This document shows positions 26,639 through 46,242 of a stretch of DNA of 64,000 nucleotides, one piece after another. The position numbers and the translations under genes are program-made. The DNA lies in assembly GCF_002407245.1 (NCBI RefSeq), contig NZ_CP010682.1, forward strand, positions 62,001-126,000, given 5' to 3'. Positions within the stretch are counted from its first letter, which is position 1, and each line of letters opens with the position of its first letter. Under the pieces are notes generated by a model. That model did no database searches and had not been told where the DNA came from. It saw only the letters and a list, made by a program, of their open reading frames with translations. Source of the DNA: Phaeobacter piscinae. Its GTDB lineage: Bacteria; Pseudomonadota; Alphaproteobacteria; Rhodobacterales; Rhodobacteraceae.

Positions 26639-28771
26639 GTGACCGATCATGTAAAACGACCCCGTTTTCTTCAAAGTCTGATTGCAGGGCGATGGGATCA
26701 CTGCGGCGCGCAGACGCAGATGTTTGCTGATGCGGCAACCGATCAACCGAATGCTGTGCTTGCCTACGGTCGCGATGACGGGACCCAGGCTGTTGATTTC
26801 GCTCGAGCGGTTGGCGGGCCTGCACTGCGGGCATTGGGGTTTCAGGATCGTGCACAGCAGCTGCGGGATGTTGCACGCGTTCTGAAGGACAATCGCGCTG
26901 CACTTTATCGTGAAAGCCTGACCATTGGTGCGACACGGCATGACTGCGCACTGGACGTGGACGGCGGTATTGCGCGTCTGTCGGCGCTGGCGGGGCAGGC
27001 GTTGAAATCACTGCCCAATGCGCCAGCCCTGCACGTTGAGGTTGGTATCGGGCCGGGCAGCACCACCGGCCGCCAGCAGATCCTCGCCCCGCTGTCCGGT
27101 GTTGCGGTGCATATGACTGGGCTGGATAATCCGGTTTTGGGGATTCTGGAGCAAATTGCGCCCGCACTCATCGCTGGCGTGCCATGTATTGTGTGTCCCG
27201 ACCCGGTCACTGCCTGTGTGAGCGAGCGCTTGGTGAAGCTGATCCACGACAGCCAGATCCTGCCCACCGGGGCCTTGCAATTGGTATACAGCCCGCCGCT
27301 GGAGATTCTGGACAGCCTGTCCGCCGGAGATGCAATCAGCTTTGCCGGGTCCCGCAGCGCGGCCCAGAAATTACGGCAGCACCCGGTGGTGGCTGCTGGT
27401 CTGGTGCGGTTGCAATCCTGCGAAACGGGTCTGTCTGCAGCCATCCTCGGCAGCGATGTGGTGCCCGGCAGCCAAGAGTATCAGTTTTTCTTGCGGGAGA
27501 TCCGCAGTGAATTGATCCTGAGGGCCGGCCAGCGGCGTCATGCAGTGCGCCGTATTCTTCTGCCCCGCCACCGCGAGGCCGAAGTCCTCGCTGATCTGGT
27601 CACGACATTGGGGGAGACCATCGTTGGAATGCCGGATGATGTGGCCACCCAAATGGGGGCATTGGTCTCACGCGGGCATCTTGAGACGGTGCAGAACGCA
27701 TTGGGTGGATTGCGTCATGGGGCAGAACTCCTATCCGAACCGATTTCTACCCCTGTTGAGACGGGCGGGGCTTTTCTGTCGCCGATGCTGTTGCATTGCT
27801 CCCAGCCTGCCAACACGCCTGATGTTCACCATACCTTTGTTCAGGGACCCGTCGCGACGGTAATGGCCTACGACAGCCTATGTGACGCCATCGCGCTTGC
27901 CAATTTGGCGCCCTGCTCGCGCTACTCAAACGTCTTCACCAACGATAGTCCGCTGGCACAGGAGGCAGCGGCCTGCCTGACATCGGCGGAAGGTCAGATC
28001 CGTATTTGCGGAAGTGATATGGCGCGTCAGGCCTTGGAGTTGTCGCCGGATCCATCAGTGCCGCGGCTGTTCGCAGCGACGCATCACGCACAGGTCTGCG
28101 GTGCAGAGGACATTCGCCATGCTGTCGCCGCCTATATGATGCGCACGGAGATACACGCACCGCCGCAGCTGCTGACCGCGCTCACAGGGCGATGGGTCGA
28201 GGGAGCGGAGACCAGGCACAACGGGCACCCGTTCCGTAAATCTCTGGAAACATTGCGTATTGGGGATCAACTCATCACTGAAACGCGACAGATTACCGAA
28301 CAGGATGTGGAGCAGTTCGCCCATTTTACGGGGGATGTTTTCTACGCCCATATGGACCGGGAAGCCGCGCGCACGCACCCGTTTTTTGACGACCGTGTCG
28401 CGCATGGGCAATTGGTTGTTTCCTTTGCGAACGGGCTGTTGGTTGACCCCGCGCCGGGTCCGGTTCTGGCCAATATAGGCTCCGATAATCTGCGCTTTCA
28501 CGCGCCGGTGTATTTCGGCGATTGCCTGCATGTGCGTGTGACCTGCAAGGAAATCACACCGCGCGCCTCTGCCCCCTTTGGGGATGTGCGCTGGGACTGC
28601 TGCGTTCTGAATGCCTGCGGTGCGGTGGTTGCGCGGTTCGATCTGCTGACCCTGGTGATGAAAAGTTGGCCGCCGGTTCCTCAGGACAACGTGAGTGAAC
28701 ATAAAGCTGCGCCGCCTACGGAATCCGCACCTCACAGGGCACAGGATCCGGTTCAGCAACCGGCTGAATAG
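26639..28771 (+). CDS. paaZ2: PaaZ2: PaaZ paralogue with inactive aldehyde-dehydrogenase half and intact enoyl-CoA hydratase half
   Basis: A 710-residue protein with the two domains of PaaZ: ALDH (about 1-520) and MaoC-type hydratase (about 540-680), plus a polar tail. The ALDH catalytic pair is gone: where E. coli PaaZ has the general base Glu256 this protein has Cys261 (QSCETGLSAAIL), and where it has the nucleophile Cys295 it has Arg300 (RAGQRRHAVRR); the cofactor lysine of the KPA motif is also lost (VCPDPVTA). The hydratase motif FTGDVFYAHMDREAA with FFDDRVAHGQLV keeps its Asp and His. Such a protein cannot oxidise the ring-opened semialdehyde and lets it cyclise to the seven-membered TDA precursor. 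The GTG start at 26639 follows AAGAGG; tdaF is 34 bases downstream. Confidence 0.88.
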   Translation: MTDHVKRPRFLQSLIAGRWDHCGAQTQMFADAATDQPNAVLAYGRDDGTQAVDFARAVGGPALRALGFQDRAQQLRDVARVLKDNRAALYRESLTIGATRHDCALDVDGGIARLSALAGQALKSLPNAPALHVEVGIGPGSTTGRQQILAPLSGVAVHMTGLDNPVLGILEQIAPALIAGVPCIVCPDPVTACVSERLVKLIHDSQILPTGALQLVYSPPLEILDSLSAGDAISFAGSRSAAQKLRQHPVVAAGLVRLQSCETGLSAAILGSDVVPGSQEYQFFLREIRSELILRAGQRRHAVRRILLPRHREAEVLADLVTTLGETIVGMPDDVATQMGALVSRGHLETVQNALGGLRHGAELLSEPISTPVETGGAFLSPMLLHCSQPANTPDVHHTFVQGPVATVMAYDSLCDAIALANLAPCSRYSNVFTNDSPLAQEAAACLTSAEGQIRICGSDMARQALELSPDPSVPRLFAATHHAQVCGAEDIRHAVAAYMMRTEIHAPPQLLTALTGRWVEGAETRHNGHPFRKSLETLRIGDQLITETRQITEQDVEQFAHFTGDVFYAHMDREAARTHPFFDDRVAHGQLVVSFANGLLVDPAPGPVLANIGSDNLRFHAPVYFGDCLHVRVTCKEITPRASAPFGDVRWDCCVLNACGAVVARFDLLTLVMKSWPPVPQDNVSEHKAAPPTESAPHRAQDPVQQPAE

Positions 28772-28805
28772 ACTATATTAACCAACTGATAACAGGACAT
28801 TTTCA

Positions 28806-29387
28806 ATGACTGAAACTGCGATTGGCTCTGCTGCGCGGCCCCGTATTCTGATTGGGGTTACGGGGTCCCTGGATGCCACCATGCTGCCGCTATACCTGCG
28901 GGCGATCAAGAACGAGATCGACTGTGAACTCACCGCCTTGTTTACACCGACTGCAACGAAATTCGTGAATATGGACGCGGTTGCGTTGTTTCTGGATCGG
29001 GTGATCAGCGGTGATAACCCCAAGGATTGGCCCACCGATAAACCGGGCCGCATTGTTGCGGATCACGATATTCTGGCCATTCTGCCCACGACGGCGAACA
29101 CGCTGTCTGCGATAGCGCATGGATCCTCGCAAAACCGCCTGACCACAGTAATTCTGGCGGCGACCTTTCCAGTGTTGCTGTTCCCTGTCATGGGCGGTCC
29201 GATGTGGGAGAAGCCGGCGGTGCGTCGCAACGTTTCCCAGCTGCGCGAAGACGGCTATGAGGTGTTTGAACCGGTTTGGCGTGAGAACTATGACCCGCTG
29301 CTGAAGATTCAGCACGGACATCACTCGCTGCCCGATCCGGAGCAGGTTGTGCAGATCCTGCAAAACCGGTTGCCCACAGCCCGCTGA
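28806..29387 (+). CDS. tdaF: TdaF: HFCD-family flavoprotein of TDA biosynthesis
   Basis: A 193-residue flavoprotein homologous to phosphopantothenoylcysteine decarboxylase: N-terminal ILIGVTGSLDA FMN-binding strand, PTTANTLSAIAHG, and ALREDGY-like ending. The family's PAMNxxMW catalytic motif reads PVMGGPMWE (127-135), with Gly for the catalytic Asn, and the histidine of the usual PHI segment appears replaced. TdaF is known to be required for TDA in Phaeobacter and Ruegeria, and a role in oxidative handling of a cysteine- or thiol-derived sulfur intermediate has been suggested. It follows paaZ2 directly and is followed by a strong terminator, so the two form one unit. Confidence 0.85.
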   Translation: MTETAIGSAARPRILIGVTGSLDATMLPLYLRAIKNEIDCELTALFTPTATKFVNMDAVALFLDRVISGDNPKDWPTDKPGRIVADHDILAILPTTANTLSAIAHGSSQNRLTTVILAATFPVLLFPVMGGPMWEKPAVRRNVSQLREDGYEVFEPVWRENYDPLLKIQHGHHSLPDPEQVVQILQNRLPTAR

Positions 29388-29414
29388 TACCGGCCAATAG
29401 GGATCTGATACAAT

Positions 29415-29442
29415 CCGGCGCAGCTGCATCTGCGCCGGTTTT
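29415..29442 (+). terminator. Rho-independent terminator after tdaF
   Basis: CCGGCGCAG and CTGCGCCGG form a perfect 9-bp G+C-rich stem with a 6-base loop, followed immediately by TTTT, 27 bases past the tdaF stop codon. Confidence 0.9.
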
Positions 29443-29450
29443 GCTGCGCG

Positions 29451-29891
29451 TCAGAGGGCGTCAATCGTGACCGTAGCGGCAAATATCCCGCCCCCATGCC
29501 GCCCGAGAACCCGATGATCCTGTGCGCGAAGGGACACCGTAACCTGATGCCGCCCGGTTGGTAGATGTCCGAGCACGACATCTGGCTGATAAGCAGTAGC
29601 GAGTTTTATGTCACCAAGATGAACATGGGCATGCCCCCGCGCAAGATCTTTGGCATCGCTGACGCAAAGGTCTGTGAACACGAAATTCTCGACCTCGATC
29701 CGCAGGCGCCAACCGTCTGCAGCGTTGTAGATGCTGCTGACCCGAAGGTCCGGCTGCGGATGGTGAGAGGGGATAGTGACAAACAGTTGAGCGGGCAGGG
29801 CCTCCACCTGTTTGATCTGCGGCAGGCAGGCACAGATGACGATGAGCGGGGCCGCGGCAAGCATGCTGATACAGAACACTCTTCGCAGCAT
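29451..29891 (-). CDS. Small exported protein with GHAHVH motif, unknown function
   Basis: A 146-residue protein with an N-terminal export signal (MLRRVFCISMLAAAPLIVIC) and possible lipidation at IVICAC. The mature part is a beta-rich domain with ENFVFTDLCVSDAKD, GHAHVHLGDIKLAT and LPTGRHQVTVSLRAQDHRVL, a pattern seen in small periplasmic His-rich proteins near DoxX and copper-related genes. The His-x-His-x-His stretch suggests metal binding. It starts 4 bases after the DoxX-like gene and ends the haloperoxidase-DoxX operon. No precise family assigned. Confidence 0.65.
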   Translation of the reverse strand: MLRRVFCISMLAAAPLIVICACLPQIKQVEALPAQLFVTIPSHHPQPDLRVSSIYNAADGWRLRIEVENFVFTDLCVSDAKDLARGHAHVHLGDIKLATAYQPDVVLGHLPTGRHQVTVSLRAQDHRVLGRHGGGIFAATVTIDAL

Positions 29892-29895
29892 TCAG

Positions 29896-30957
29896 CTAGA
29901 TCCCTTGGGCCTCGACCAGGGTTGCTTGCGGCCGCTGGAACAGGTCAACCGGGGCGCCGCCGTGCAGCAGGAAGAATAGAAAAACCCCGTATAGATTGCC
30001 GTGCAACAAAGGCGTTTCCTGCAGGCTGATTGCGAAGAAGCTGAACGCGCAGAGCAGGAGCAGCGAGATCGGCCGGATCAATTGTCCAAGAGCCAGAAGA
30101 ACCCCGGCCATCAGTTCAATCGCCATCATGATCAGTGCAACAACCGGCAGCGGCAGGCCGAAGAACCACATATCGCCATGCTCCAGAATTGCGATCAGCA
30201 GGGTGGGCTGCAGGAATTTTACCAATACGGCAATGGCCGCAAAGGTCGCGCCCATAGCCACTTGAACAAGACTCCAGACCAAAACGGGCGCATTGGGAAA
30301 AAGCGGTGGGAGGCTTGGCGGCAACAGGCGATCAAGGCTGAGCGCGCCACTGCCAACATGCAACAGCAGAAACGCCGGCGCGGCAAAATGGAAGCCGTAG
30401 TAGGCGATGAAATCGATGGAGAAGAGGCAACTGCCCAACCCAACAAGGCCGAGAATGCCAAGCGCGGCCAGCCGTGTGCCAAGGCCCAATACCAGCAACA
30501 CAGATGTGATCAGCGCCGGCAACGCCAGCCAGTCCCAGCCTGGGATAAGTGTCAGCTGCATATCGGGGACAAATAGCGTTGGCGCGCTCCATGTTTCAGT
30601 GCCATGCCGGGGCAGACCGCCCAGAGCATTCATGCCCACGGTCGTCCCCAGACCAAGACGCAGGCACAACGGGCCCCAATCGCGACTGCGATCACTCAAA
30701 CGCCTGAAAATACGGTCCTCCGTTGGGCGCAAGAGTTGCCCCGCAAGCACAGCAGCGAAAACGGTGAGCGTTGCGAAGAGGGCGAAGACAAGCAATAGGC
30801 CCGGGCTGCGAAACAACTCGGGCACGCTTTGCAGTGACAGGGTTTGAACCTCTTGGGGCGTTAGCAGCCATGGTTCGTGTGCTGCCACAGATCCGCTGGT
30901 CAGGATCAGGCCGATGCTCAGACCGAGAACAATGCGGGCAGAGACAGGCTGCGCCAT
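29896..30957 (-). CDS. DoxX-like multi-pass membrane protein
   Basis: A 353-residue inner-membrane protein: signal-like N-terminal helix, a periplasmic segment (AHEPWLLTPQEVQTLSL), a single helix, a cytosolic loop, then a DoxX-like bundle (LGLGTTVGMNALGG, LGLGTRLAALGILGLVGLG, MAIELMAGVLLALGQL). The HEPWLLTP segment and DoxX bundle are typical of proteins encoded with copper/quinol-related or haloperoxidase genes. Start 30957 has AAGGAG upstream. It lies 90 bases downstream of the haloperoxidase-like gene on the same strand, with the small exported protein following, so the three are probably co-transcribed. Confidence 0.75.
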   Translation of the reverse strand: MAQPVSARIVLGLSIGLILTSGSVAAHEPWLLTPQEVQTLSLQSVPELFRSPGLLLVFALFATLTVFAAVLAGQLLRPTEDRIFRRLSDRSRDWGPLCLRLGLGTTVGMNALGGLPRHGTETWSAPTLFVPDMQLTLIPGWDWLALPALITSVLLVLGLGTRLAALGILGLVGLGSCLFSIDFIAYYGFHFAAPAFLLLHVGSGALSLDRLLPPSLPPLFPNAPVLVWSLVQVAMGATFAAIAVLVKFLQPTLLIAILEHGDMWFFGLPLPVVALIMMAIELMAGVLLALGQLIRPISLLLLCAFSFFAISLQETPLLHGNLYGVFLFFLLHGGAPVDLFQRPQATLVEAQGI

Positions 30958-31047
30958 GGTCTGGCTCCTTGGCTGGTGGTGGGCATATTCGCAGCACGCC
31001 CCGCAACAAGTGAACCTGCTGCGGGGGACCACTTTGTACAGGCAGTG

Positions 31048-32373
31048 TTATTGCGACAGTTTGGTAGTTAGAACGCCTGCACACTCCGTCGCTGCCGCGC
31101 TGCCTTTGCCCGAACCGGCGTTTGTCGGGGTCAGAAATTCAGCGCTGATGTGGCTGCCGATCTGATAGCCAAGCATGTCGCCGACCGTGTTTGACCGGCG
31201 GTAGTGTACGCCGCCGATGACGCGCGATTCTGCCTCCTCTTCAGCGAATTGCGCGAAGGTCTGATAGCTGCGGCTATAGCCGTCTTTCCCCTCAAAGCTA
31301 AAGGAAAACTCATCCGTACCAAAGACAGTTTCCATGACCTGCTGAGCGGCGCTGCCGCTGGTGCAGTGCTGGCAGGGATATTCCGGATGCATGGGGGCAG
31401 CCACCAAGGGGGTCCAGCCGTCCATCGCGTCCAGTGTCGGGTGGTCGTACCCGTCGCCGAGGGCGGCGATCGCAGTTTCTGGCCGCCAGAACTGATAGGT
31501 GTATTTGGCGTTGAACCCGGCAACCAATGCGTCGGTCAGAGCGATATTCAACAGTGCCAGTGTCCGGGCTTCCTCAACCAGTGGGAGCGCGCAGGCACGG
31601 CTGCTGTCGCGTGCGATCTGGTTCCAGGCTCCGGAGCCTGACCCGGCATGAAGTTTTGCGATGGCCACCAGTTCAGGATTGCTCTGCGATGCTGCGCCGC
31701 CGAGATTAGCGACCTCCGCAAGATCACGCTGAAACTGAAAACTATTGAGCTCGGGTGGTGGCGGGACGTCAAACTGCTTGGCAGAGGTCAGAGCGAAGGG
31801 CTGCATGTTGCGGATTTTAGGGGCAACCATCGGCCGCTCAGAGGTGGGCTGGTAGACGCCGTTATCCGCCTGACCAGGGGTGAAATCGCTTGCAAAATCA
31901 GCGCCATCCGCCGCCCGTTTTTCGAGCACTGCCTCTGCGGCAAGGGCGCCAAGCTGGACACCTGCCTCCCGGGCCTCATCATCTGTGATTTCGCTCAGGA
32001 TTGTCTCGGCAGCGGCAGCTAGGTCTGCCTCGCGCTCTGGCATAAGGGTCTGCATGACAACCAATGCCGCCTGCGTTACCGCAGCGCGCCGATCGGCATC
32101 CGGTTGCTGAGGGCCATCATATGCATAGGCACTATAGCTTCCCTCAATCGCATTTGCAGCGTCAAACATCGCGGCATGCAGCAATGCCAGCGTACGCTGA
32201 CGTTGTGCGCCGGGCCATTTTTCCTCAACAACAAATCGCATTGCGGTTTCCTGCCAATCAGCAGCCAGTTCGGCCTGAGCTGATCCGCTGGCGGTGAAAA
32301 AGAGCGCGGTGGCCAGACCGGTGAGACAGGTGTGCGAGAGCAGCTGGCGGCGCCATGGGGTCAGGGTGAACAT
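31048..32373 (-). CDS. Vanadium haloperoxidase/PAP2-family exported protein
   Basis: A 441-residue exported protein (signal peptide ending SGSAQA near residue 34) of the vanadium-dependent haloperoxidase/acid phosphatase superfamily. All three anion-site motifs are visible: K290-x6-R297-P (KYTYQFWRP), the histidine motif PCQHCTSG (His336, in place of PSGH) and SRVIGGVH (Arg384, His390). The PCQHC variant occurs in a poorly studied secreted subgroup, so halide oxidation, phosphatase activity or another vanadate or phosphate chemistry are all open. GAGG precedes the ATG. It is first of three genes on the minus strand. Confidence 0.85.
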   Translation of the reverse strand: MFTLTPWRRQLLSHTCLTGLATALFFTASGSAQAELAADWQETAMRFVVEEKWPGAQRQRTLALLHAAMFDAANAIEGSYSAYAYDGPQQPDADRRAAVTQAALVVMQTLMPEREADLAAAAETILSEITDDEAREAGVQLGALAAEAVLEKRAADGADFASDFTPGQADNGVYQPTSERPMVAPKIRNMQPFALTSAKQFDVPPPPELNSFQFQRDLAEVANLGGAASQSNPELVAIAKLHAGSGSGAWNQIARDSSRACALPLVEEARTLALLNIALTDALVAGFNAKYTYQFWRPETAIAALGDGYDHPTLDAMDGWTPLVAAPMHPEYPCQHCTSGSAAQQVMETVFGTDEFSFSFEGKDGYSRSYQTFAQFAEEEAESRVIGGVHYRRSNTVGDMLGYQIGSHISAEFLTPTNAGSGKGSAAATECAGVLTTKLSQ

Positions 32374-32503
32374 CGGAGTACCTCGTCCGTGAAAAGTGCA
32401 GCTACAGGTAGAAACGCTTTGGCAGTTCGCACAAATCGAAAGTCCCGAAGACGCCCCTCAGTATTTCTTCTGGGGCGCCTTCACCGTGGCAGGATCAGCC
32501 CGA

Positions 32504-33961
32504 TCAGAACATTCCAAGGAGATGCCACCACAGCAGATCCAGCGGCGCCAACAGCAGAAGGCTTATCAGGAAGAGGCTGAGACATAGCCGGATTACCGCC
32601 CCCGCCGGCAGGTTTCCGGCCTGAATGGCTGCGATCAGTGGAGGCGCCTGGAACGGGAGGAAGACATTGGAAAAGGCCACGACCTGCGTCATCAGGACTG
32701 TTTCGAGCGGCAGACCAGTTGCGTCGGATAACTCGCCCGCGAGCGGGGTCATCACAGCTGGCACACCAGGCAGATTTGTGATCATCGCCACCAGCGTTGA
32801 CAGGCCAATCAGGATTGATGTGTTCCACACCGGCCAATCCCCAGCGAAGGCGACGGTCCCGGTGATGGCCCCGACTACAGCTTCGCCAAGTCCGGCGGAG
32901 GATATGACGGCGCCGAGCCCCATGATGCCAGCGACAAACAACAAAGCTCCGTAGCTGAGATCAGTGTTGATGCAGCCTTTGCGCGTGAGATCTGCTCCCG
33001 GCAGCAGGCAAATCAGTGCGGCCGCCATGCCCACCCACGCGGGGGACACCATATGGATCTGGTCGGTTAGCCACAGCAACAGGCACAACGCCAACACGAG
33101 GCTTAGAGCTCGTTCCTGACGGCTGAATGGCGCGGCAGCGGGCGCGACCTTGACACTATGCGGTGGGATGCGGTCTGGAAACATCACCATCGCCAACCCG
33201 ACTAGGACTGCGGATTTCACAACGCCAAGCACTGGAAAATGCAGAAGAAGATAGTCAAAATAGGAGATATTGATCCCGTAGATGGTTTCCGACATCCCAA
33301 CGAGGATCATATTCGGGGCATTCGCGGGCAAAATAGTGAAAGCCGGGGCAAAGGTGCCAAAGGTAGCAACTGCCAGCATCCCTGTCCGACCGTTTGAGGC
33401 AGCGCCGAAACCGACACGCTCCGCCAGTGCAGAGATCACCGGAAGCAGGATCATGATCCGCCCGATGGACGATGGCATCACAAAGGCCAAAGCCACCGAA
33501 AAGACGACGATGCCGGTCAGCAGGCCACCGTAGCTGCGTAGCGGCAGCAACGCGAGAACACCGGCGGCCCGTTTGTCGAGGGTGGTGTGCTTGATCGCAG
33601 CGCCGAGGACCAAGCCACTGAACAAAAGCCAAAACGTCGATGAGTGGAAGCCAGAGAAGATGGTTTCAGGCGCTGCGACGCCGAATATCACCGCGACCAG
33701 AAAAAAGGCCAAGGCAGTCCAATATTCGGGCACAAGACCGGTGGCCCAAAGACCAATTGCCCCAATCGAAAGCGCGGCAACAATCACAAGATCGGGGGAC
33801 AGGTACATTGAGGTCGCAAGAGCCGCCAACCCGGCGCAGGTCAGGATCAGAACCAATGTCCAGAGGGCGCGCCCGTTTCGCAGCATTTGTGACAGGGACC
33901 GGCCTGCGCCGGTCATTTTCTGTGCGGATGTTGGCGGGGCTGAATTACTTTGATCGGTCAT
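32504..33961 (-). CDS. SLC13/DASS-family anion:Na+ symporter
   Basis: A 485-residue inner-membrane carrier with about 12-13 hydrophobic segments of the divalent-anion:sodium symporter family (SLC13/CitT/YbhI). Family motifs: FWLLFSGLVLGAAIKHTTLDKR, PSSIGRIMILLPV (first SNT-like clamshell position, here PSSIGR), FAPAFTILPANAPNMILVG (second, ANAPN), MITNLPGVPAVMTPLAGEL. Substrates in the family are dicarboxylates, tricarboxylates or sulfate-type anions; which is not decidable. It is upstream of, and on the same strand as, the haloperoxidase gene, 130 bases away. Confidence 0.85.
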   Translation of the reverse strand: MTDQSNSAPPTSAQKMTGAGRSLSQMLRNGRALWTLVLILTCAGLAALATSMYLSPDLVIVAALSIGAIGLWATGLVPEYWTALAFFLVAVIFGVAAPETIFSGFHSSTFWLLFSGLVLGAAIKHTTLDKRAAGVLALLPLRSYGGLLTGIVVFSVALAFVMPSSIGRIMILLPVISALAERVGFGAASNGRTGMLAVATFGTFAPAFTILPANAPNMILVGMSETIYGINISYFDYLLLHFPVLGVVKSAVLVGLAMVMFPDRIPPHSVKVAPAAAPFSRQERALSLVLALCLLLWLTDQIHMVSPAWVGMAAALICLLPGADLTRKGCINTDLSYGALLFVAGIMGLGAVISSAGLGEAVVGAITGTVAFAGDWPVWNTSILIGLSTLVAMITNLPGVPAVMTPLAGELSDATGLPLETVLMTQVVAFSNVFLPFQAPPLIAAIQAGNLPAGAVIRLCLSLFLISLLLLAPLDLLWWHLLGMF

Positions 33962-34258
33962 GCGCCTGAAGGTCCTCTGATCTTGGGTCAGGTCCCGATA
34001 TGCCGCCCGTTAGGGGTTTGATGCCAATCGATTTATCAGAGATGGGGCCTCATAATATCCAAACCCTCGGCTGTCCTCAGGGTTTCAACGTCACGGCCCC
34101 CAGACCACAGAAATACTGAGGTGTACGCTCCAGATTTCCGATTTTACGATGGCTGGCCTGCGCAATATCAGGGGGCAACCGTTCGACGGTGGCCCGCCCG
34201 CACCTGTTTTGACAGGTGAGCCAGCCTATTCCTTCCCACATACCGTTTGCGAGACACC

Positions 34259-34717
34259 ATGACCGATGCGACGCACCTTCTGACAGTGCCCTCCGAAGTA
34301 TTTGAAATCACGCCAATCGGTGTAATCCGCACCGGGTTTGAGGAGGTCAGAGACTGCCCGATGTCCGGACGCCGCAATCCAGCCACCAGCCGGATTGAAT
34401 TGGCCCCTGAATATCACAGTGCGCTACAGAATATCGAATTGGCCTCGCATCTATGGGTCCTTTACTGGCTGCATAAATCCGACCGCAGCGCACGGATACG
34501 GCAGGCACGGGGGAGCCAGGTTGCACGCGGGGTTTTCGCCAGCCGGGCGCCAAACCGTCCCAACCCCATTGGTCTGAGTGCGGTTCAGTTGCTGGACCAC
34601 TCCGATGGGGTTCTGACGATCAGCGGGCTGGATTGCATTGACGGCACCCCGGTTGTGGACCTGAAACCCGTCGTCCCACAGGAAGATGCCCGCCCGGATG
34701 CCACCATCGGTTGGTAG
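34259..34717 (+). CDS. trmO: tRNA (N6-threonylcarbamoyladenosine37-N6)-methyltransferase TrmO
   Basis: A 152-residue TrmO (formerly YaeB/VirR) beta-barrel methyltransferase, which adds a methyl group to t6A37 of tRNA-Thr. The diagnostic block RGVFASRAPNRPNPIGLSAVQLL is complete, and ITPIGVIRTGFEEVRDCP matches the N-terminus. The short form without the extended C-terminal domain is usual in alphaproteobacteria. The ATG at 34259 is chosen; a TTG at 34247 is in frame. It stands just upstream of the ABC importer operon but is functionally unrelated. Confidence 0.88.
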   Translation: MTDATHLLTVPSEVFEITPIGVIRTGFEEVRDCPMSGRRNPATSRIELAPEYHSALQNIELASHLWVLYWLHKSDRSARIRQARGSQVARGVFASRAPNRPNPIGLSAVQLLDHSDGVLTISGLDCIDGTPVVDLKPVVPQEDARPDATIGW

Positions 34718-34759
34718 CCCGGCCAATCACAGTGCTCCAGTCACGAAGAAAGTAGGCTC

Positions 34760-36361: not shown

Positions 36362-36365
36362 TCCA

Positions 36366-39712: not shown

Positions 39713-40266
39713 CGCTGACTGGCGTCAACCTGTGCCGCCTGCAGCGCGCGCACTTCTGCTGAAAGCCAATCAAGGTTGTCATCCGCAATCCCGAGACTGC
39801 GCAGATGATCGGCGGTATTCCACAGATAGTCACAGTTAGGGCCGCGTTCACCGGCTGCATGGGCGATGATCTCCGCCTGTCGTGGCAGGCTGTGGTTGTC
39901 ATATTGTTCATGATCCCGGTTGACGACATAGGTCAGTGCCTCAACCATGCGGCCATCCGCGAGGGCAAGCGGCGTCGTGATTTCACGGTACGCGGGATTG
40001 AACAGCTCGCGCGCGCGCAGGTCTTTCAGGACCTCTGGTTCCTGACCGGATGTCACCGCCAGTGCAACGCCGTTACAGACCGCGTCTTCTGCGGCGTCCA
40101 ATGCAAGCACCAGACCAGGTTGCGCAATGGTGCCACGATAGCGCAGAGAGTTCAGACAGAACCGGCGCTGATAGCCGCTGAGTTGGGCGGGCAGCTGCTC
40201 CGCTGGTTCAAATCCGGGATCCCAGATCAATGATCCATAAGCAAAAACCCAAAGTGTGTCGGACAT
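39709..40266 (-). CDS. tdaR3: TdaR3: ChaC-type gamma-glutamylcyclotransferase, TDA resistance
   Basis: A 185-residue ChaC/GGCT-family enzyme. The substrate loop WVFAYGSLIWDPGFEPAEQ at the N-terminus and the catalytic Glu region (FNPAYREITTPL) fit cation transport regulator ChaC-like proteins, which act on glutathione to give 5-oxoproline and Cys-Gly. In Phaeobacter, three genes (tdaR1-R3) next to tdaE are reported to give TDA resistance, the third a gamma-glutamylcyclotransferase thought to counter the proton-antiport effect of TDA. Position (last gene of the tdaC-E transcript) and family match. AAGGA precedes the ATG. Confidence 0.85.
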   Translation of the reverse strand: MSDTLWVFAYGSLIWDPGFEPAEQLPAQLSGYQRRFCLNSLRYRGTIAQPGLVLALDAAEDAVCNGVALAVTSGQEPEVLKDLRARELFNPAYREITTPLALADGRMVEALTYVVNRDHEQYDNHSLPRQAEIIAHAAGERGPNCDYLWNTADHLRSLGIADDNLDWLSAEVRALQAAQVDASQR

Positions 40267-40351
40267 TATGCAGTTCCTTGATGCGGTCAGGATGCGCCCC
40301 CGTCGGAAAAAAGGCGGAAGAGGTCAGGGGTCCCCTCTCCCGCCAGGCAGA

Positions 40352-41038
40352 TCAGTCTGTCAGCTGGCGATAGGAGGTCACCAGACTGCTGTAAGGGGGC
40401 ACAAAGACTGAACGCGTTTCGTCGCCGATCTGAACCGTTTCCTTGACGTCGAAATGCAGATGGATCGGCAGTTCCGAGATCCAGGAATTTGACACTTTGC
40501 CAAGGCGATCCCCTTTGGACACCTTGTCCAGCGGGGCAACGGCGAGATCGTCCATATTCATATGAACATAGCGGTAGAGCGTGCCGGAGGGCGTCTGCAA
40601 GGTCAGGGCGAAGCGGCCTACATGCGCAATCACACCGTCCTCAACCGCAACCGCCCAATGCGTATCAGTCTGGCAGGTAGCGGGGCGAATATCCTGTCCC
40701 TGATGGCCGCCCGATGCACAGACCGGCAGATCTGAACGGCGCAGCTCGCAGAAATTGTCGCGCCACGGATAGCTGTAGTTGACGCTGTCACATTGGCTTC
40801 CGCCATTTCCCTTGAACCCGCCGGGCCCATAAACGTGAGAGTTCGCATAGGCTGGCCCACTTTCCAGCGGGAAGCGCATATCGGGATAGAGAACCGCCCC
40901 GATTGAGAGGCCAATACCGGTGTCTTTGATCAGGTCCCCGGGCGCCTTGAATCGATCATCTGCAATTACGGGCGTGGCGGAGATCAGTGCCGAGAGAGCG
41001 AGAGCACCGCAATAGAGGCTTGTTGCGCGCGGTGTCAT
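40352..41038 (-). CDS. tdaR2: TdaR2: exported M23-like (LytM) protein of the TDA resistance set
   Basis: A 228-residue exported protein with a signal peptide (MTPRATSLYCGALALSALIS, ending VIA). The mature part is a LytM/M23-type domain: GGHQGQDIRPAT holds the first metal ligands (HxxQD; the typical form is HxGxD) and LPIHLHFDVKE the HxH pair. The domain contains several cysteines (C85-ish CDSVNYSYPW, CELRR, CASGG) suggesting disulfides. It overlaps tdaR1 by 4 bases (ATGA). Placement between tdaR1 and tdaR3 supports the assignment; how a cell-wall-peptidase-like protein helps tolerate TDA is not known. Confidence 0.75.
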   Translation of the reverse strand: MTPRATSLYCGALALSALISATPVIADDRFKAPGDLIKDTGIGLSIGAVLYPDMRFPLESGPAYANSHVYGPGGFKGNGGSQCDSVNYSYPWRDNFCELRRSDLPVCASGGHQGQDIRPATCQTDTHWAVAVEDGVIAHVGRFALTLQTPSGTLYRYVHMNMDDLAVAPLDKVSKGDRLGKVSNSWISELPIHLHFDVKETVQIGDETRSVFVPPYSSLVTSYRQLTD

Positions 41039-41610
41039 TGATCCGCTCCCTTCACCACGGTGAGGGATCCGGCCAGTTCCGCAAGATAGTCTGGTTTGAT
41101 ACAGCGCGCATCCTCAGTCGGCGCATCACAGGTGATCCGCAGGGTGTATGTCCCACCAAAGCGACTGAGCATGTGATCAGCCCCGTCGCCCGTGGACTCG
41201 TAGGACCGCGCTTCGTGTTTGAAGGACAGGCCGGGCACGTCCACAAGGTGGGTTCGGCTCCCCATGACACTGACCTGCGCTCCCTCCAGCTGGTAGTAGG
41301 CAGCGTAAGCATTACCCTGCCCACGAAACGCTGGAAGACCGGCAGCAGTATTGGCCCCGAGGATCATGACAGCCATTGCCATATCATCAAATCCGTCAGG
41401 CTCGGTCGCAAGAAACGCAGCCGTGAGGGTCCGGTCGTCTGCACTTGCCGCGTCAATTGCAGATGTGGCGGCGGCCCAGTCAATGCTGCTCACAGCACGT
41501 GTCGCGTCGGAGGGTTTATCTACCGCAAGGGCAGGGAGTGCCATCAGCGTGAGCGCCGCAGCTGTGGCAGCAACCGCTCCGGCGGCTTTGGCACAGGGGG
41601 ATGAGGTCAT
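41035..41610 (-). CDS. tdaR1: TdaR1: exported protein of the TDA resistance set, unknown fold
   Basis: A 191-residue protein with a Sec signal (AAGAVAATAAALTLMALPALA, cleavage after ALA near residue 29). The mature part has an Ala-rich helical half and a beta-rich half (GGTYTLRITCDAPTEDARC) with one Cys pair. No family recognised. GGAGAG precedes the ATG. It lies 39 bases downstream of tdaE and overlaps tdaR2, so resistance is made on the biosynthetic transcript. The name rests on position and on the described tdaR1-R2-R3 order. Confidence 0.7.
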   Translation of the reverse strand: MTSSPCAKAAGAVAATAAALTLMALPALAVDKPSDATRAVSSIDWAAATSAIDAASADDRTLTAAFLATEPDGFDDMAMAVMILGANTAAGLPAFRGQGNAYAAYYQLEGAQVSVMGSRTHLVDVPGLSFKHEARSYESTGDGADHMLSRFGGTYTLRITCDAPTEDARCIKPDYLAELAGSLTVVKGADQ

Positions 41611-41649: not shown

Positions 41650-42843
41650 CTAGGCGGGTTCCAGCGTTTTTGGCGTCGCGGGATTGGCGGCTTTCTTGGA
41701 CTTGGCGTGCAACCTGGTCATCTGGCCGAAAATGTTGCGACGGTGCATTTCCTCAGTGCCGCCCACGCTACAGAACGCCAGCGCATCCCGCAGAAAGGTG
41801 GTAATCTGCCCCTCGTGGTAGCCTTTGCTGCCGTAGAGCTTCATCAGCTCCATCGCGCCTTCAACGATGGTTTCCGCACCGACAAGTTTGGAAATCGAGC
41901 AGGTCATTGCGGCTTCCGGCGCACCACTGAGCAGTTGATGCAGTGCGCCGTAGGATACCCACTTCGCGCTTTCGGTGCCGATGCGAATATCGGTCAGCTT
42001 TTTCTGAATATACTGATGCTCGATGATCGGGACATCAAACGTTGTCCGTTTCTTTGAAAAATCAAACGCTTCAGACAGCATAGGTTCAATCAGCCAAGCT
42101 GCCGCCAGACCATAGTACAAACGCCCCATGGAGACGATGTTCACCAGGTTACGAAGGCCGGCTCCGGGTTCGCCCAGAAGGTGACCGTAGTGGAGCGGCA
42201 CATCATCAAATCGCATTTGACCGGTCGGCAGGTCCAGATTGCCCAGTTTGCGATCTTGCGCGCCGATCGTCAGTCCGGGGCTATCGGCATCCAGCAACAC
42301 CAGCGAAATGCCTTCGCGGCCGTGGTCACTCAGCTTACAGACAACAAGAATGAAGCTGGCGACTGGGGCATGAGCAATGTTGTATTTTGCGCCGTTCAGA
42401 CGAAAGGTCTCATTGGGGCCGGGGGTTAACAGTGACGACGTTGCCCGCACATCCGTGCCAGTGTCAGGATCCGCGATTGCAGTGGCGCTCAGCTCTCCAT
42501 TGAGGATCCGGCCCAGATATTCGCGCTTCTGACTGTCGCTGCCATAGAGATCCAATGCGCGCACCATGCCAGCCTGCGCGATCACCGACAGCAGCATTCC
42601 GGGGGTGCGCAAAGTGGCCGCAAGGCCTTCCAACGCGGCAGTAAACCCCCACCAGTCCCGGCCATCGCCGCCAAAATCGCGCGGCACGATCATCCGCCAC
42701 AAACCAGCTGCGGTCAGGCGATCCCAAGTGCGCTGATCAAAGGCACGACGCCCCAGGTGCAGCTCATCCGGGTCGGCCATTTTCCCGATCGCTGCAAAGG
42801 CGGTACGGGTCTGCTGCTGCTCGGCTGTCCAGTTCAATTGCAT
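41650..42843 (-). CDS. tdaE: TdaE: acyl-CoA-dehydrogenase-fold flavoprotein oxygenase of TDA biosynthesis
   Basis: A 397-residue acyl-CoA dehydrogenase homologue: N-terminal helical domain (RLTAAGLWRMIVPRDFGGDG), middle domain (TAIADPDTGTDVRATSS), C-terminal helical domain with FAD-binding GAETIVEGAMELMKLYGSKGY. By published work TdaE is not a dehydrogenase but an FAD-dependent dioxygenase that oxidises the seven-membered-ring CoA ester, releases CoA by oxygenolysis and epoxidises the ring to give tropolone. GAGGACG precedes the ATG. It is downstream of tdaD by 23 bases. Confidence 0.9.
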   Translation of the reverse strand: MQLNWTAEQQQTRTAFAAIGKMADPDELHLGRRAFDQRTWDRLTAAGLWRMIVPRDFGGDGRDWWGFTAALEGLAATLRTPGMLLSVIAQAGMVRALDLYGSDSQKREYLGRILNGELSATAIADPDTGTDVRATSSLLTPGPNETFRLNGAKYNIAHAPVASFILVVCKLSDHGREGISLVLLDADSPGLTIGAQDRKLGNLDLPTGQMRFDDVPLHYGHLLGEPGAGLRNLVNIVSMGRLYYGLAAAWLIEPMLSEAFDFSKKRTTFDVPIIEHQYIQKKLTDIRIGTESAKWVSYGALHQLLSGAPEAAMTCSISKLVGAETIVEGAMELMKLYGSKGYHEGQITTFLRDALAFCSVGGTEEMHRRNIFGQMTRLHAKSKKAANPATPKTLEPA

Positions 42844-42866: not shown

Positions 42867-43283
42867 TCAGGCGGTTTCCTGAAAAGTCGCAACGCTTTCC
42901 TTGAAGGCATCCGGCACCGGGTAGGTGGCCTGTTTGTCGTAGTCGAACATCACATGGACAGATTTGGCATTGGCCACGACGCGCCGATCCGCGTCGTCGA
43001 TATGCATAACATGCTCCATCTCGAAGCTCTTGCCGCCAAAGCTAATCACCCGGCTGCAAACGACGAGGTTGTCGCCATAGAGCGCCTGAGAGATGTAATC
43101 GCAGGAGGTTTTGACCATGATATGCGGCAGCTTCTCGGACTTTGGCAGCTCCAGAAGGTCATGCATGTATTCCAGGTAGGCCGATTGCATGTAGTCGTAG
43201 TAAACCGGGCTGCTGACATGCCCCATGGAATCCGTATCGCGGTAACGGATTTCGACGGGGGTTTCGAAGGCTTTGTTGGACAT
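42867..43283 (-). CDS. tdaD: TdaD: hotdog-fold acyl-CoA thioesterase of TDA biosynthesis
   Basis: A 138-residue 4-hydroxybenzoyl-CoA-thioesterase-type hotdog protein. The catalytic helix-start IRYRDTDSMGHVSSPVYYDYMQ contains the conserved Asp (RDTDSMGHV), matching YbgC/4HBT enzymes. ATG 43283 follows AGGAGGG; the longer upstream reading frame overlaps tdaC and is not used. The role in TDA assembly is thought to be thioester cleavage of an intermediate. It lies between tdaC and tdaE in one transcript. Confidence 0.9.
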   Translation of the reverse strand: MSNKAFETPVEIRYRDTDSMGHVSSPVYYDYMQSAYLEYMHDLLELPKSEKLPHIMVKTSCDYISQALYGDNLVVCSRVISFGGKSFEMEHVMHIDDADRRVVANAKSVHVMFDYDKQATYPVPDAFKESVATFQETA

Positions 43284-43320: not shown

Positions 43321-43923
43321 TCAGGCGTGCTGGGTGCAGTCCTGGCAGGCGCGTTTTTCCAGCGGACCATGTATGGTAAATCCCATAGGAACGGGACCGA
43401 ATTTGCGCAGGATCGGCAGCCCGAATTTCTCGGCCGCGCAGAGCGTGGTGATACAGCCGTCAGCGTGGCCCTCCGCGCAGTCCCGCGCGGCGATGACATT
43501 GCTGGAGACAAAGCGTCGCTCAACCGTGATCGGAAGCAACTTTTCAGGTGCAGGATGGGTGGCGCAGATCTTGGGCTCCGCCCCGGTGCGGGAGGCGAGG
43601 ACCATATTGTCGGTGTTCATGATGAACACATCCAGCAGCTTCATCTTCTGGATATGTTCGTAGATGATTGAGTGCAGGTGCGGGTAAGCCACCACGCCAA
43701 CCAAAACTGCCCCATCCTGGCAGGCGACACTGTCTGCGGCCTGTTCCATCGTCCGATGCAGCTTTACCGAAGCGCCCTGACACCGGCGCAATGCCCAGGA
43801 TAGGGCTGCACGCTCGCAATTGGTACCAGCCGGACCTAGCGTATGAACCTGTTTTACCCAGCCGAATGTTTCGGGGTGCGGAATATACTCGGCGTCGGCG
43901 TTATTTTCGATTTGAAGATCCAT
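43321..43923 (-). CDS. tdaC: TdaC: prephenate-dehydratase-like protein of TDA biosynthesis
   Basis: A 200-residue protein with only the catalytic periplasmic-binding-like domain of prephenate dehydratase (VHTLGPAGTNCERAALSWA, TVERRFVSSNVIAARDCAEG); the regulatory ACT domain is missing. The usual TRF motif before the substrate Phe/Thr reads ERRFVSSN, so dehydratase activity towards prephenate is unlikely and a changed function is expected. The start is the ATG at 43923 with GGAAGAG upstream; a GTG directly before it is in frame. First gene of the tdaC-D-E-R1-R2-R3 unit, preceded by the candidate TdaA site. Confidence 0.88.
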   Translation of the reverse strand: MDLQIENNADAEYIPHPETFGWVKQVHTLGPAGTNCERAALSWALRRCQGASVKLHRTMEQAADSVACQDGAVLVGVVAYPHLHSIIYEHIQKMKLLDVFIMNTDNMVLASRTGAEPKICATHPAPEKLLPITVERRFVSSNVIAARDCAEGHADGCITTLCAAEKFGLPILRKFGPVPMGFTIHGPLEKRACQDCTQHA

Positions 43924-43982
43924 CACTCGTCTCTTCCGCTAATTGAATTCATATAGGGCCATTATAAATTCCTCATCTGTTT

Positions 43983-44001: not shown

Positions 44002-44297
44002 ATTGAGGCAAGGGCAAATTTTTATGATTATTGCGGTGGGTTCTTGTCTAGGTTTGCACCAGCCCTACATCATAGTTTCAAACGAATCTAATTTCTTGAT
44101 CCCATCGAAACGGTAAAGGCTTCTCGGAACAATTCGAAAAACCTGATGCTGTTCCTCAGGTATAATGAGGAGTGGGTTATGAACTCACAAATGCCATGGA
44201 AGAGCGGAAATTGTCGGTACAGCGGATCACGTTATCCGGCGTGTCGCCCGATAAGCAGGCGAAATGCCGCTCACGCAATGAGGTCGCCAGTTTGCAC

Positions 44298-44342
44298 AAA
44301 AAAGATGGCCTGTTTCACCCCCCTTGGAAGGGCGAAACAGGC
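44298..44342 (-). terminator. Rho-independent terminator after tdaB
   Basis: GCCTGTTTC and GAAACAGGC form a perfect 9-bp stem enclosing a smaller CCCTT/AAGGG pair; on the minus strand the stem is followed after four bases by TTTTTT. It lies about 100 bases after the tdaB stop codon and should separate tdaB transcription from tdaC. Confidence 0.85.
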
Positions 44343-44443: not shown

Positions 44444-45136
44444 TCAGCCTGACTGGGCCGGATTCCGACCAACGCCATCATAAAGGTCAAGACAGCGCTC
44501 AAACCAGTTTGAAACGATATCATCGTTTTCAAACAGAGTGTTGGGTGTGCATACATTACACCATTGAAGGGTCCCGAAAAGGGTAAAATCGGCATAGGCA
44601 GGCATCGCCCCTGACAGCCAGTCCTGGGTCGCCAGAAGATCGCGTACCGGCGCGAGTTTTTCCGGTAGCCGCGCGCGTTCGTCCTCGCCACCTTCTGCCA
44701 AAGTCTCAAGTGGCATGCCAAACCGACGTTCACGGGCGGATCGGAAATAGACCTGGTCATCCGGGGACATCAGATTGTGCATATCCATGACAGCAATGGT
44801 TGCGAGACTGGGGTGGAGGACGGTTTTACAGTAGCTTTCTACGAAACGGGTCAAAGCTACCGCCCCCTTGCCATCAAACAGGGCCGGGGCATCGGCATAG
44901 GTTTCGTCAAGATATCGGGCAATATCGAAACTCTCCCCCAATACCGTATTGCCATCACGCAGCACTGGAACGCTGCTAAAGCTTCCGTCTTCAACATTTG
45001 GGATATCTGCGAAAGAGACCGGGATAAGGTCGTAATCTAGCTCTTTATGGTTCAGGGCCATAATGATTTTCCATACATGTGGTGAGTAGTGACGTATTCC
45101 GTCCTCGCCACATAGGCTGTACAGCTTGCGGTTCAT
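44444..45136 (-). CDS. tdaB: TdaB: glutathione S-transferase-like protein of TDA biosynthesis
   Basis: A 230-residue GST with an N-terminal thioredoxin-like domain (LYSLCGEDGIRHYSPHVWKI, cis-Pro in SSVPVLRDGNTVLGES with the glutathione-gamma-Glu site ES) and a helical C-terminal domain (WLSGAMPAYADFTLFGTLQW). It resembles beta-etherase-type GSTs. Start 45136 with GGAG upstream is chosen over the long upstream frame. TdaB is thought to attach sulfur to the tropone ring using a glutathione-type donor. tdaA is 215 bases upstream on the same strand; the terminator at 44298-44342 follows. Confidence 0.9.
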   Translation of the reverse strand: MNRKLYSLCGEDGIRHYSPHVWKIIMALNHKELDYDLIPVSFADIPNVEDGSFSSVPVLRDGNTVLGESFDIARYLDETYADAPALFDGKGAVALTRFVESYCKTVLHPSLATIAVMDMHNLMSPDDQVYFRSARERRFGMPLETLAEGGEDERARLPEKLAPVRDLLATQDWLSGAMPAYADFTLFGTLQWCNVCTPNTLFENDDIVSNWFERCLDLYDGVGRNPAQSG

Positions 45137-45351
45137 CTGTGCGCTCCATATTGAGATTATAGGGATAACTTTGGCTGGAAAACCAGGAATCAATTCCTCA
45201 ATAGTTATCGGAGCTTTATCCACACAAGTGAAATCAGCAATATGTTTATTGTAAAAATAAAAAATCGGCAAACAAAAGCTGTTTTGAGGCGCTGGCAGGG
45301 GTGGATAGCACCGCTGGGCTGGCAGTCTCTGGGTGTGATTGCGGCGTGATA

Positions 45352-46242
45352 TTAAGCAGGAATCGCCATCTGTTCGGTATTCAGCAGATCGCGCACGGCG
45401 CTGATGATTGGGTCCTTTGCACGCGATACGAGATGCGCGAACAGGACACGTGTGGATTTGCGCACCTCAAGAAGCAGTGCGATGTCGCCGCTCACCGGTT
45501 CGGTCCCCGCAGAACTGACATGAACCAGCCCTATGCCTGCACCGCTTGCGATCAGGGTCCGAGTGATCGTTTCGTCGTCAACATTGATGATGCGGGCGGG
45601 CTGGATGCCGTTTTCCTTAAATAGGCGCTCCGCGATGCGACCGCAGCATGAACTATACGTCGGATAGATCCAAGGCAGAGCTTCGAGACGAGCCCAGTCA
45701 AGTTCTGTGCGTTCCGGGACCAGATCCGGGGCCGCGGCAAGATAGACGCTAAAATGCGAAATTTCGAGCGTTTCCAGATCGGTATGCGCCTCGTCCGGGT
45801 CAATGAAAAAGCCGGCATCCAGCCGTCCGTTGCGAATATCATCGAGCACGCTGGAGGAGGTACCATGTTGCAAAGCGACTTCCAGATCCGGGAAGTTCTT
45901 CGACAGATCTGCCAGGAGGCGGCTTACCTCAGTTGATCCCAGGTTGCGCCCGGCACCGACCCGTAGCTGACCGGCCAAACGACCACGTAGGCGAGAGGCT
46001 TCCTCCAAAAATTTCTGGTGATTGTCCAGCAGTTGCCGCGCTTCCACCAAGAGCCGCTGGCCATCCGTGGTGACACTCATTCCACGTGGTGTACGCTGGA
46101 ACAATGTCAGGCCAAGCGTGTCTTCCATCGTTTTGATATGGGCGCTCACGGCAGGCTGGCTGCGAAACAGCAGTTCTGATGCGCGTGTGATACTTCCCTC
46201 CCTCGCCACAGTGACAAAGGTTTTGAGTTGACTGATATCCAT
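45352..46242 (-). CDS. tdaA: TdaA: LysR-type activator of TDA biosynthesis
   Basis: A 296-residue LysR-type regulator: N-terminal winged HTH (MDISQLKTFVTVAREGSITR, then LFRSQPAVSAHIKTMEDTLG) and a periplasmic-binding-type effector domain (LRVGAGRNLGSTEVSRLL onward). AAGGGG precedes the ATG. It is encoded directly upstream of tdaB on the same strand, unlike the divergent arrangement usual for LysR genes. TdaA is known to be required for tda expression and to act at the tdaC promoter; the effector may be TDA itself, which autoinduces. Confidence 0.9.
   Translation of the reverse strand: MDISQLKTFVTVAREGSITRASELLFRSQPAVSAHIKTMEDTLGLTLFQRTPRGMSVTTDGQRLLVEARQLLDNHQKFLEEASRLRGRLAGQLRVGAGRNLGSTEVSRLLADLSKNFPDLEVALQHGTSSSVLDDIRNGRLDAGFFIDPDEAHTDLETLEISHFSVYLAAAPDLVPERTELDWARLEALPWIYPTYSSCCGRIAERLFKENGIQPARIINVDDETITRTLIASGAGIGLVHVSSAGTEPVSGDIALLLEVRKSTRVLFAHLVSRAKDPIISAVRDLLNTEQMAIPA

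Follow-up and report, generated by a model that had tools for sequence, protein, structure and literature searches.

In the current study, we examined a 64,000-nucleotide window of DNA from Phaeobacter piscinae (part of contig 2 of a genome of 8 contigs and 4.13 Mb), in which positions 26639 to 46242, a block of 19,604 bases, carry the genes for tropodithietic acid (TDA). We think it likely that this block is one continuous TDA regulon of about 20 genes, and not two halves of a cluster lying around a foreign insert, and that three of its promoters are most likely bound by the LysR-type regulator TdaA. The observations behind this reading are the gene content of the block, the conservation of its gene order, the shape of the trees of two of its middle proteins (an SLC13-type permease and a vanadium-haloperoxidase-like protein, VHPO), linkage that persists in rearranged loci, and a palindrome shared among promoters. 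The locus itself is already known; what is added here is the probable placing of its middle genes in the regulon and two further sites of the palindrome.

The stretch is the known TDA locus of Phaeobacter. Its nearest named records are P. piscinae plasmids, with 98.1% identity across all 19,604 bases, and the 57 records that matched the block are all from Phaeobacter (in 53 of them, 80% or more of the query matches at a single place); TdaC was found in five of the seven genomes of the genus compared. The cluster of P. inhibens DSM 17395 (pPGA1_262; MIBiG BGC0000932) has the same genes in the same order and on the same strands, at 89.2% DNA identity over 19.6 kb, and shows no difference of kind, the window holding a P. 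piscinae-type copy. An earlier note on this DNA had listed paaZ2-tdaF on the plus strand and tdaA, tdaB, and tdaC-D-E-R1-R2-R3 on the minus strand, and all of these are present on the strands named, each intact and free of internal stops. The families that it gave to the products agree with NCBIfam and Pfam profiles, several of them below curated cut-offs, and the ten proteins are 91 to 99% identical to those of DSM 17395 (TdaA, 98%; TdaB, 91%; TdaC, 98%; TdaD, 99%; TdaE, 97%; TdaF, 98%; TdaR1, 91%; TdaR2, 96%; TdaR3, 95%; PaaZ2, 92%). The tda gene set is complete, and the nearest relatives of the window include TDA producers: P. piscinae S26, whose block is arranged as in the window, is a reported producer (PMC9942592, PMC13421778). 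As a separate observation, tdaE of P. inhibens record NZ_CP081167.1 (1322 to 2511) is matched in two annotated pieces, and that strain is a possible natural nonproducer.

Between tdaF and tdaR3 (29388 to 39708) lie nine genes, which the earlier note had taken for 10 kb of unrelated DNA inserted between the two parts of a split cluster. Four are on the minus strand: a small protein that is the positional orthologue of P. inhibens PGA1_262p00820 (29451 to 29891; “DUF4399” in PMC13311259), a DoxX-type membrane protein (29896 to 30957; Pfam match below cut-off), the VHPO (31048 to 32373; PCQHC motif, Pfam matches below cut-off), and an SLC13/DASS-type anion permease (32504 to 33961), which had no PDB sequence match at E 0.001. 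On the plus strand, a TrmO-like protein consisting of the N-terminal domain only (34259 to 34717) is followed by an ATP-binding cassette (ABC) importer, namely, a family 5 solute-binding protein (34760 to 36361), two permeases (36366 to 37409 and 37410 to 38219), and a double ATPase with two fused NikD/NikE-type domains (38216 to 39712). By its family 5 binding protein, two permeases, and two ATPase domains, the importer is of the peptide/nickel (Opp/Nik) class; none of its proteins reached an NCBIfam equivalog cut-off, and the nearest solved relatives of the binding protein are peptide and nickel binders of low similarity. The TrmO-like protein is assigned to the TrmO family by a curated cut-off (TIGR00104, 129.3 bits versus 93.25), its tRNA methyltransferase role being putative, and a PHROGs search with it gave no match. 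The motifs K-x6-RP, PSGH, and SR-x5-H form the vanadate site of vanadium-dependent haloperoxidases; the VHPO keeps the first and the last, and the PSGH position reads PCQH in all 14 of the proteins compared, so that, with one of the three motifs altered, the VHPO may not be a haloperoxidase at all. MIBiG BGC0000932 already includes at least two of these nine genes (PMC13311259), and transport and regulation genes have been noted in the TDA clusters of P. inhibens (PMC11595833). In searches of open-licence PMC full text, of limited coverage, no paper came up that gives a TDA role to SLC13, the VHPO, or the TrmO-ABC genes.

A first argument against an insertion comes from Pseudovibrio, which belongs to a different order (Hyphomicrobiales). 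In four named Pseudovibrio genomes, inspected over the whole stretch between tdaA and the far side of tdaF, and in two other Stappiaceae genomes (G796 and G802), 17 of the 20 block genes, SLC13, the VHPO, and TrmO-ABC included, keep the same order and orientation at 40 to 82% identity. There the order runs tdaA-B-C-D-E-R1-R2-R3, then the importer and TrmO on the other strand, SLC13 and the VHPO, tdaF on the other strand, and finally a gene for an NAD(P)-binding protein. The seven shared middle genes are 45 to 67% identical and thus about as well conserved as the tda genes themselves. The Pseudovibrio locus also carries the palindrome in the same three promoters. It differs from the window in having no paaZ2 beside tdaF, in having further palindromes before tdaF at a spacing of 23 bases, and in that a DUF2938 protein replaces DUF4399 and DoxX, as it does in Tritonibacter; in one Pseudovibrio genome (G400), inspected open reading frame (ORF) by ORF, it follows the VHPO. 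The DUF4399 and DoxX genes were seen in Phaeobacter only, among the loci compared. Given that seven of the nine middle genes hold their position and order in another bacterial order, and that a promoter palindrome is common to them and tdaC, the description of the middle 10 kb as unrelated and inserted is not supported. The bounds set earlier are also too narrow, as they omit two parts that belong to the block: the gene for the NAD(P)-binding/epimerase-family protein (25196 to 26305, minus strand; PF01370/PF13460), which forms a conserved outer edge and stands in the same place in Tritonibacter (45 to 46% identity) and in Pseudovibrio-type loci (45 to 48%), and the divergent promoter beside it (26306 to 26638).

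The block is also found on two Tritonibacter mobilis plasmids, which carry 13 of its 20 genes, with the NAD(P)-binding gene, a paaZ2-like gene, tdaF, the VHPO, SLC13, and tdaR3 through tdaA in order. Unlike the window, they lack the TrmO-ABC operon, the dehydrogenase half of their PaaZ2 is degenerate, and the tdaC palindrome is not conserved. We rejected an insertion of unrelated DNA in part because, among the intact-order loci compared, there is no lineage in which tdaF abuts tdaR3; in Tritonibacter the VHPO and SLC13 stand there. Maximum-likelihood trees (unrooted, 13 or 14 tips) of six core proteins, of SLC13, and of the VHPO all group Tritonibacter with Pseudovibrio (bootstrap values of 99, 87, and 88, respectively), apart from Phaeobacter, although by taxonomy Tritonibacter and Phaeobacter share one order and Pseudovibrio belongs to another. 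Since these concordant trees contradict the taxonomy, a transfer of the whole block between orders, SLC13 and the VHPO included, is probable. As Tritonibacter groups with the lineage that has the importer, its lack of TrmO-ABC would most simply be a loss.

Where the locus has been rearranged, the importer and the VHPO have stayed with it, which speaks against a cluster split in two as the earlier note had it. One Stappiaceae genome (G792) has the importer, then tdaB, tdaE, tdaD, and tdaC on the opposite strand, tdaA, a PaaZ-like gene, the VHPO, and a tdaR3-like gene (41%) adjoining tdaF in this otherwise rearranged locus; the stretch examined showed neither SLC13 nor TrmO. In another (G863), one contig bears tdaR2-R1-E-D-C, SLC13, tdaA, and the VHPO, and a second bears tdaF, tdaB, the NAD(P)-binding gene, and the importer; neither contig yielded a TrmO match. 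Across 87 Stappiaceae genomes, TdaE (E up to 1e-90) is found in eight, and the importer binding protein (E up to 1e-80) is found in nine, including all eight of these (Fisher p 1.5e-10, a value overstated by kinship because six of the eight TdaE genomes share one locus type). Among 394 Rhodobacteraceae, the binding protein at the same threshold is present in two, the genome of the window and one other Phaeobacter, and both have TdaC; TdaC (E up to 1e-10) is present in these two and in one genome of another genus (G169). The G169 match, a TdaC-like sequence of 47% identity broken by an internal TAG (C49, 3510 to 4049), lies on a 7.6-kb contig with no other tda match. In Pseudovibrio denitrificans JCM 12308 (10004 to 12236), the matches to tdaC and to tdaE are each split over two frames, through either draft errors or decay.

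We also asked where the middle genes occur by themselves. In plasmid searches covering 72,556 records, in which counts are tallies plus the matches listed, the binding protein at 60% identity or more was confined, among the matches listed, to 57 Phaeobacter records, and the VHPO (>50%) and SLC13 (>60%) were confined to these 57 and 3 Tritonibacter records. We therefore rejected, for plasmids and among the matches listed, an existence of these genes apart from the TDA locus. The VHPO (>50%) occurs in 2 of 385 Alphaproteobacteria, both of them Phaeobacter. Relatives of the binding protein at 45 to 52% identity, among the best 8000 candidates scored in a protein search, come from Paracoccus, a Pannonibacter metagenome-assembled genome, and other sources; since Pden_1599-1615 are listed as tda homologues (PMC4278212), Paracoccus may likewise hold a tda locus.

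The second line of evidence is a palindrome, CCTCAG-N5-CTGAGG, whose TCAG-N5-CTGA core has the T-N11-A form typical of LysR regulator sites. An exact copy (CCTCAGAAATCCTGAGG, 26466 to 26482) lies in the divergent promoter of the NAD(P)-binding gene and paaZ2-tdaF, and copies with one mismatch lie between the divergent SLC13 and TrmO-ABC units (CCACAGAAATACTGAGG, 34105 to 34121) and upstream of tdaC (CCTCAGGTATAATGAGG, 44154 to 44170), the last only 7 bases beyond a published LysR site. That site, TCAGGTTTTTTGAA, was predicted at −223 to −211 of the tdaC promoter and is credited to Geng and Belas 2011 (PMC6224355); an insertion in it, beside other mutations, is reported for a P. inhibens variant that had lost TDA production (PMC6224355). 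It is exact in P. inhibens DSM 17395, and its counterpart in the window (TCAGGTTTTTCGAA, 44133 to 44146, minus strand), with one change, falls at −223 to −210 from the tdaC ATG at 43923. The tdaC site is known in substance, then, and the paaZ2-tdaF and SLC13/TrmO sites are new here; no paper describing the shared palindrome came up in searches of open-licence PMC full text, although this coverage is limited and other key TDA papers may say more.

The palindrome emerged from a scan for words common to promoter regions, having been missed by a scan for strict symmetry; the shared word was in 8 of 16 regions, orthologues among them, versus at most 3 in 20 plain shuffles. With up to one mismatch, it occurs in 3 of the 15 intergenic stretches compared within the block and around it, these being the three promoters named. 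In 2000 dinucleotide-preserving shuffles of the same stretches, never more than one stretch carried it and 1988 shuffles had none, a test that is not independent, since the pattern was found in the same data. The whole genome has at least 12 distinct sites with up to one mismatch among the matches listed, 3 of them in the block, and 8 of the other 9 listed overlap ORFs of at least 311 codons. Each of the 12 Phaeobacter and Pseudovibrio-type loci compared carries it, with up to two mismatches, in all three promoters. One Pseudovibrio genome (G399) has just two exact copies, both in its tda locus, which also holds 4 of the 23 sites with up to one mismatch in that genome; of the four exact copies in G802, two are in its tda locus. 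In the rearranged G863 locus, a one-mismatch copy stands near the VHPO start. LysR regulators usually have paired sites separated by about two turns of the helix, and in four of six Pseudovibrio-type tdaF promoters a second copy (up to two mismatches) lies 23 bases from the first, something matched at 4 of 5000 random window positions. We rejected a role for the palindrome as a terminator: nothing ends at the two divergent promoters, and there is no T run at tdaC.

Several observations weigh against our reading. Neither the window nor P. inhibens has a good second copy at one LysR spacing (4 to 6 mismatches at best), unlike Pseudovibrio, and sites with up to three mismatches are not in excess in the window (35, versus 33 expected). 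Both Tritonibacter loci have 3 to 4 mismatches at tdaC and SLC13 and 2 at paaZ2, and in G792 there is only a two-mismatch copy, between tdaC and tdaA. A further case is G803 (C61, 1819 to 8677), the ninth Stappiaceae genome with the binding protein, where a TdaA-type LysR gene (47%) is divergent from a complete TrmO-ABC operon; here the importer occurs without TdaE or a specific TdaF, as a solo sensor-importer pair, and nothing better than three mismatches lies between the two units, with exact copies elsewhere in the genome. Because the copies in G792 and G803 are poor and G803 has exact ones elsewhere, a different site may serve TdaA in those lineages. The importer is not essential for TDA, since Tritonibacter is without TrmO-ABC and no ABC importer is named for the Janthinobacterium cluster, as far as it is described (PMC13163973). 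Finally, the paaZ2 promoter of P. inhibens T5 needs the quorum-sensing regulator PgaR, with PgaI (PMC13345283), and PgaR might act there directly.

These points bear differently on the explanations that compete with a continuous regulon. That paaZ2-tdaF and tdaR3 are parted by 10 kb of unrelated genes in a split cluster seems to us highly improbable. This view would fit the annotations (nickel/peptide importer, haloperoxidase, anion permease, TrmO), none of which has an obvious role in TDA synthesis, as well as the absence of the TrmO-ABC half from Tritonibacter and the restriction of DUF4399 and DoxX to Phaeobacter; however, it is contradicted by the order retained in Pseudovibrio, by the concordant trees, which turn the Tritonibacter absence into a loss, by the linkage that survives rearrangement, and by the palindrome common to the promoters. 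Somewhat less improbable, but still unlikely, is that the middle genes are neutral passengers that moved with the block and were kept by chance, with no role in TDA. The block does lie on plasmids in Phaeobacter and Tritonibacter, the conflict of trees with taxonomy suggests movement as a unit, and DUF4399/DoxX are swapped elsewhere for the DUF2938 gene. Yet frames that stay open at 45 to 67% identity across orders are a sign of long selection, the linkage has outlasted three different gene orders, and two divergent promoters share the tdaC palindrome.

A less remote alternative, though one we hold to be appreciably weaker than binding by TdaA, is really a variant of our own reading and shares part of its probability: the palindrome could be bound by another regulator, such as the LuxR-type PgaR, with coregulation not running through TdaA. 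The need of the paaZ2 promoter for PgaI/PgaR points this way, as does the lack of a good palindrome beside the TdaA-type gene of G803. On the other side stand the T-N11-A form of the palindrome, its position next to the published LysR site at tdaC, the paired copies in Pseudovibrio-type tdaF promoters, and the presence of a tdaA gene in 14 of 14 producer-type loci compared. Moreover, PgaR could equally act by raising tdaA; quorum sensing is reported to raise tdaA expression (PMC5429656), so that its effect on paaZ2 may pass through TdaA.

With regard to the core genes, PaaZ2 (26639 to 28771, plus strand; TIGR02278, 573 bits against a cut-off of 563) is a PaaZ paralogue that aligns over nearly its full length with E. 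coli PaaZ (6jql). Where the latter reads AGQKCTAIRR the window reads AGQRRHAVRR, and by this alignment the catalytic Cys of the aldehyde dehydrogenase domain is replaced by Arg. The change, already described in a review (PMC7497051), is present in all six Phaeobacter examined, and the region is degenerate in the two Tritonibacter plasmids and G792; the hydratase motif FYAHMD is retained in all nine loci that have paaZ2. Judged from these residues, the dehydrogenase would be dead and the hydratase domain live. Next to paaZ2 is tdaF (28806 to 29387, plus strand), which encodes an HFCD/CoaC-like flavoprotein (CoaBC-like model, below the curated NCBIfam cut-off). The remaining genes are on the minus strand. 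For several, the nearest model falls below its curated cut-off: tdaE, an acyl-CoA-dehydrogenase-fold enzyme (41650 to 42843; nearest NCBIfam model); tdaD, a hotdog thioesterase (42867 to 43283; YbgC/FadM-type model); tdaC, prephenate-dehydratase-like (43321 to 43926; weak match, E 1.7e-5); tdaB, a beta-etherase-type glutathione S-transferase (44444 to 45136; nearest NCBIfam model); and tdaA itself (45352 to 46242; LysR model). The Janthinobacterium cluster, by description, shares tdaA, tdaB, tdaD, tdaE, tdaF, paaZ2, and an M23 peptidase gene with the window and has a named upstream Na+ transporter gene; unlike the window, it is described with no tdaC, with a contiguous tdaA-B-E-F, and with extra patB and gshB-like genes (PMC13163973).

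Homologues of single core proteins also turned up farther afield. TdaC-like proteins of 42 to 48% identity, hypothetical or unannotated, occur in Serpentinimonas, Pseudoalteromonas, Proteus, Staphylococcus xylosus, and Pantoea records and possibly serve another pathway. Burkholderia arboris NZ_CP101525 has a TdaE-like (14001 to 15023; 42%) and a TdaD-like (27393 to 27821; 58%) protein about 12 kb apart, with no further tda match within the 29 kb examined.

The resistance genes comprise tdaR1 (41035 to 41610, minus strand), tdaR2 (40352 to 41038, minus strand), and tdaR3 (39709 to 40266, minus strand). TdaR3 is a ChaC-type gamma-glutamylcyclotransferase (PF04752, 133.7 bits, over the cut-off), and TdaR2 is an M23-type peptidase (PF01551, 32.2 bits, over the cut-off) whose intact zinc motifs HxxxD and HxH are kept in 13 of 13 loci. 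TdaR1 is an exported-looking protein with no family model in Pfam or NCBIfam and no meaningful PDB sequence match (best E, 1.5); comparison of folds gave a weak RseB-like match (the RseB/MucB C-terminal fold), and the lack of a better one is not proof of a new fold. These genes are reported to be coregulated with biosynthesis via TdaA (PMC7497051). The prediction that resistance lies on the biosynthetic transcript fits tdaR1 and tdaR2, which sit tightly behind tdaE (a gap of 39 bases, then an overlap of 4). For tdaR3 it is likely but not certain, because the 85-base gap between tdaR2 and tdaR3 holds a weak terminator-like hairpin (40318 to 40337), and this hairpin could keep tdaR3 below the expression level of the other operon genes. 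At the other end, a strong intrinsic-terminator-like hairpin 3′ of tdaB (44308 to 44342, minus strand; 16 pairs and then a T run) would part tdaAB from tdaC-D-E-R1-R2-R3.

Outside the block, directly upstream of tdaA, lie another LysR gene and the genes for an ABC importer of the oligopeptide type (46513 to 49510), without the palindrome; they are present in Phaeobacter loci and were not seen in Pseudovibrio or Tritonibacter loci. A tRNA-Arg gene (anticodon acg; 55313 to 55389), the sole Rfam match at gathering thresholds, lies on this plasmid-type contig; P. gallaeciensis pGal_A255 has also been reported with a tRNA (PMC4148982).

TdaA has one further feature of interest. All 15 of the TdaA-type proteins compared, among them the one from G803, have two adjacent Cys residues, Cys199 and Cys200, and Cys199 aligns with a Cys of OxyR 6g1b that we take to be the OxyR sensing residue. 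As a control we used 30 LysR rows from the same genome (29 of the 36 matches listed plus the neighboring LysR, with one ORF appearing in two rows). The pair is absent from all of them, and an OxyR-like row has a lone Cys at 199. A structure model of TdaA places the Cys at the start of a helix, in a model that is weak overall (mean predicted local distance difference test score [pLDDT], 59.7). Because TDA is a cyclic disulfide-type compound, a thiol sensor would be a sensible means of detecting it, and we regard TdaA as a possible thiol sensor as a lead, not a result. A more far-reaching version, which we consider doubtful, is that TdaA reads the TDA dithiet via Cys199-Cys200 and that its primary target is TrmO-ABC; producers would then have hung the pathway, the resistance genes, and SLC13/VHPO on the same operator, and some nonproducers, such as G803, would keep sensor and importer to detect or take up the TDA, or metal or thiol adducts, of their neighbors.

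If the block is indeed one regulon, quorum sensing and TDA would raise TdaA, which would in turn activate the three promoters; as these carry the same palindrome, TdaA would switch on synthesis, resistance, and the transport set together. PaaZ2, with its hydratase motif kept and its dehydrogenase Cys lost, would divert a precursor from the phenylacetate pathway, TdaB to TdaF would build TDA, and TdaR1 to TdaR3 would protect the cell, while SLC13, the VHPO, and the TrmO-ABC importer would handle transport, or extracytoplasmic chemistry, of the product at the membrane. The transported substrates we can only infer: the importer might retrieve thiol peptides or metal chelates left outside by TDA chemistry, and SLC13 might move a TDA-type carboxylate or sulfate, a guess to which we give well under even odds.

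As an antibiotic of marine roseobacters, TDA has been studied intensively and is a basis for fish-farming probiotics, yet in the literature compared its export, re-uptake, and sensing go without explanation. If the seven middle genes do join the regulon, they would be concrete candidates for the passage of TDA or its building blocks across the membrane. The shared palindrome offers a direct handle on which genes TdaA commands, and the invariant Cys pair offers one on how TDA induces its own synthesis.

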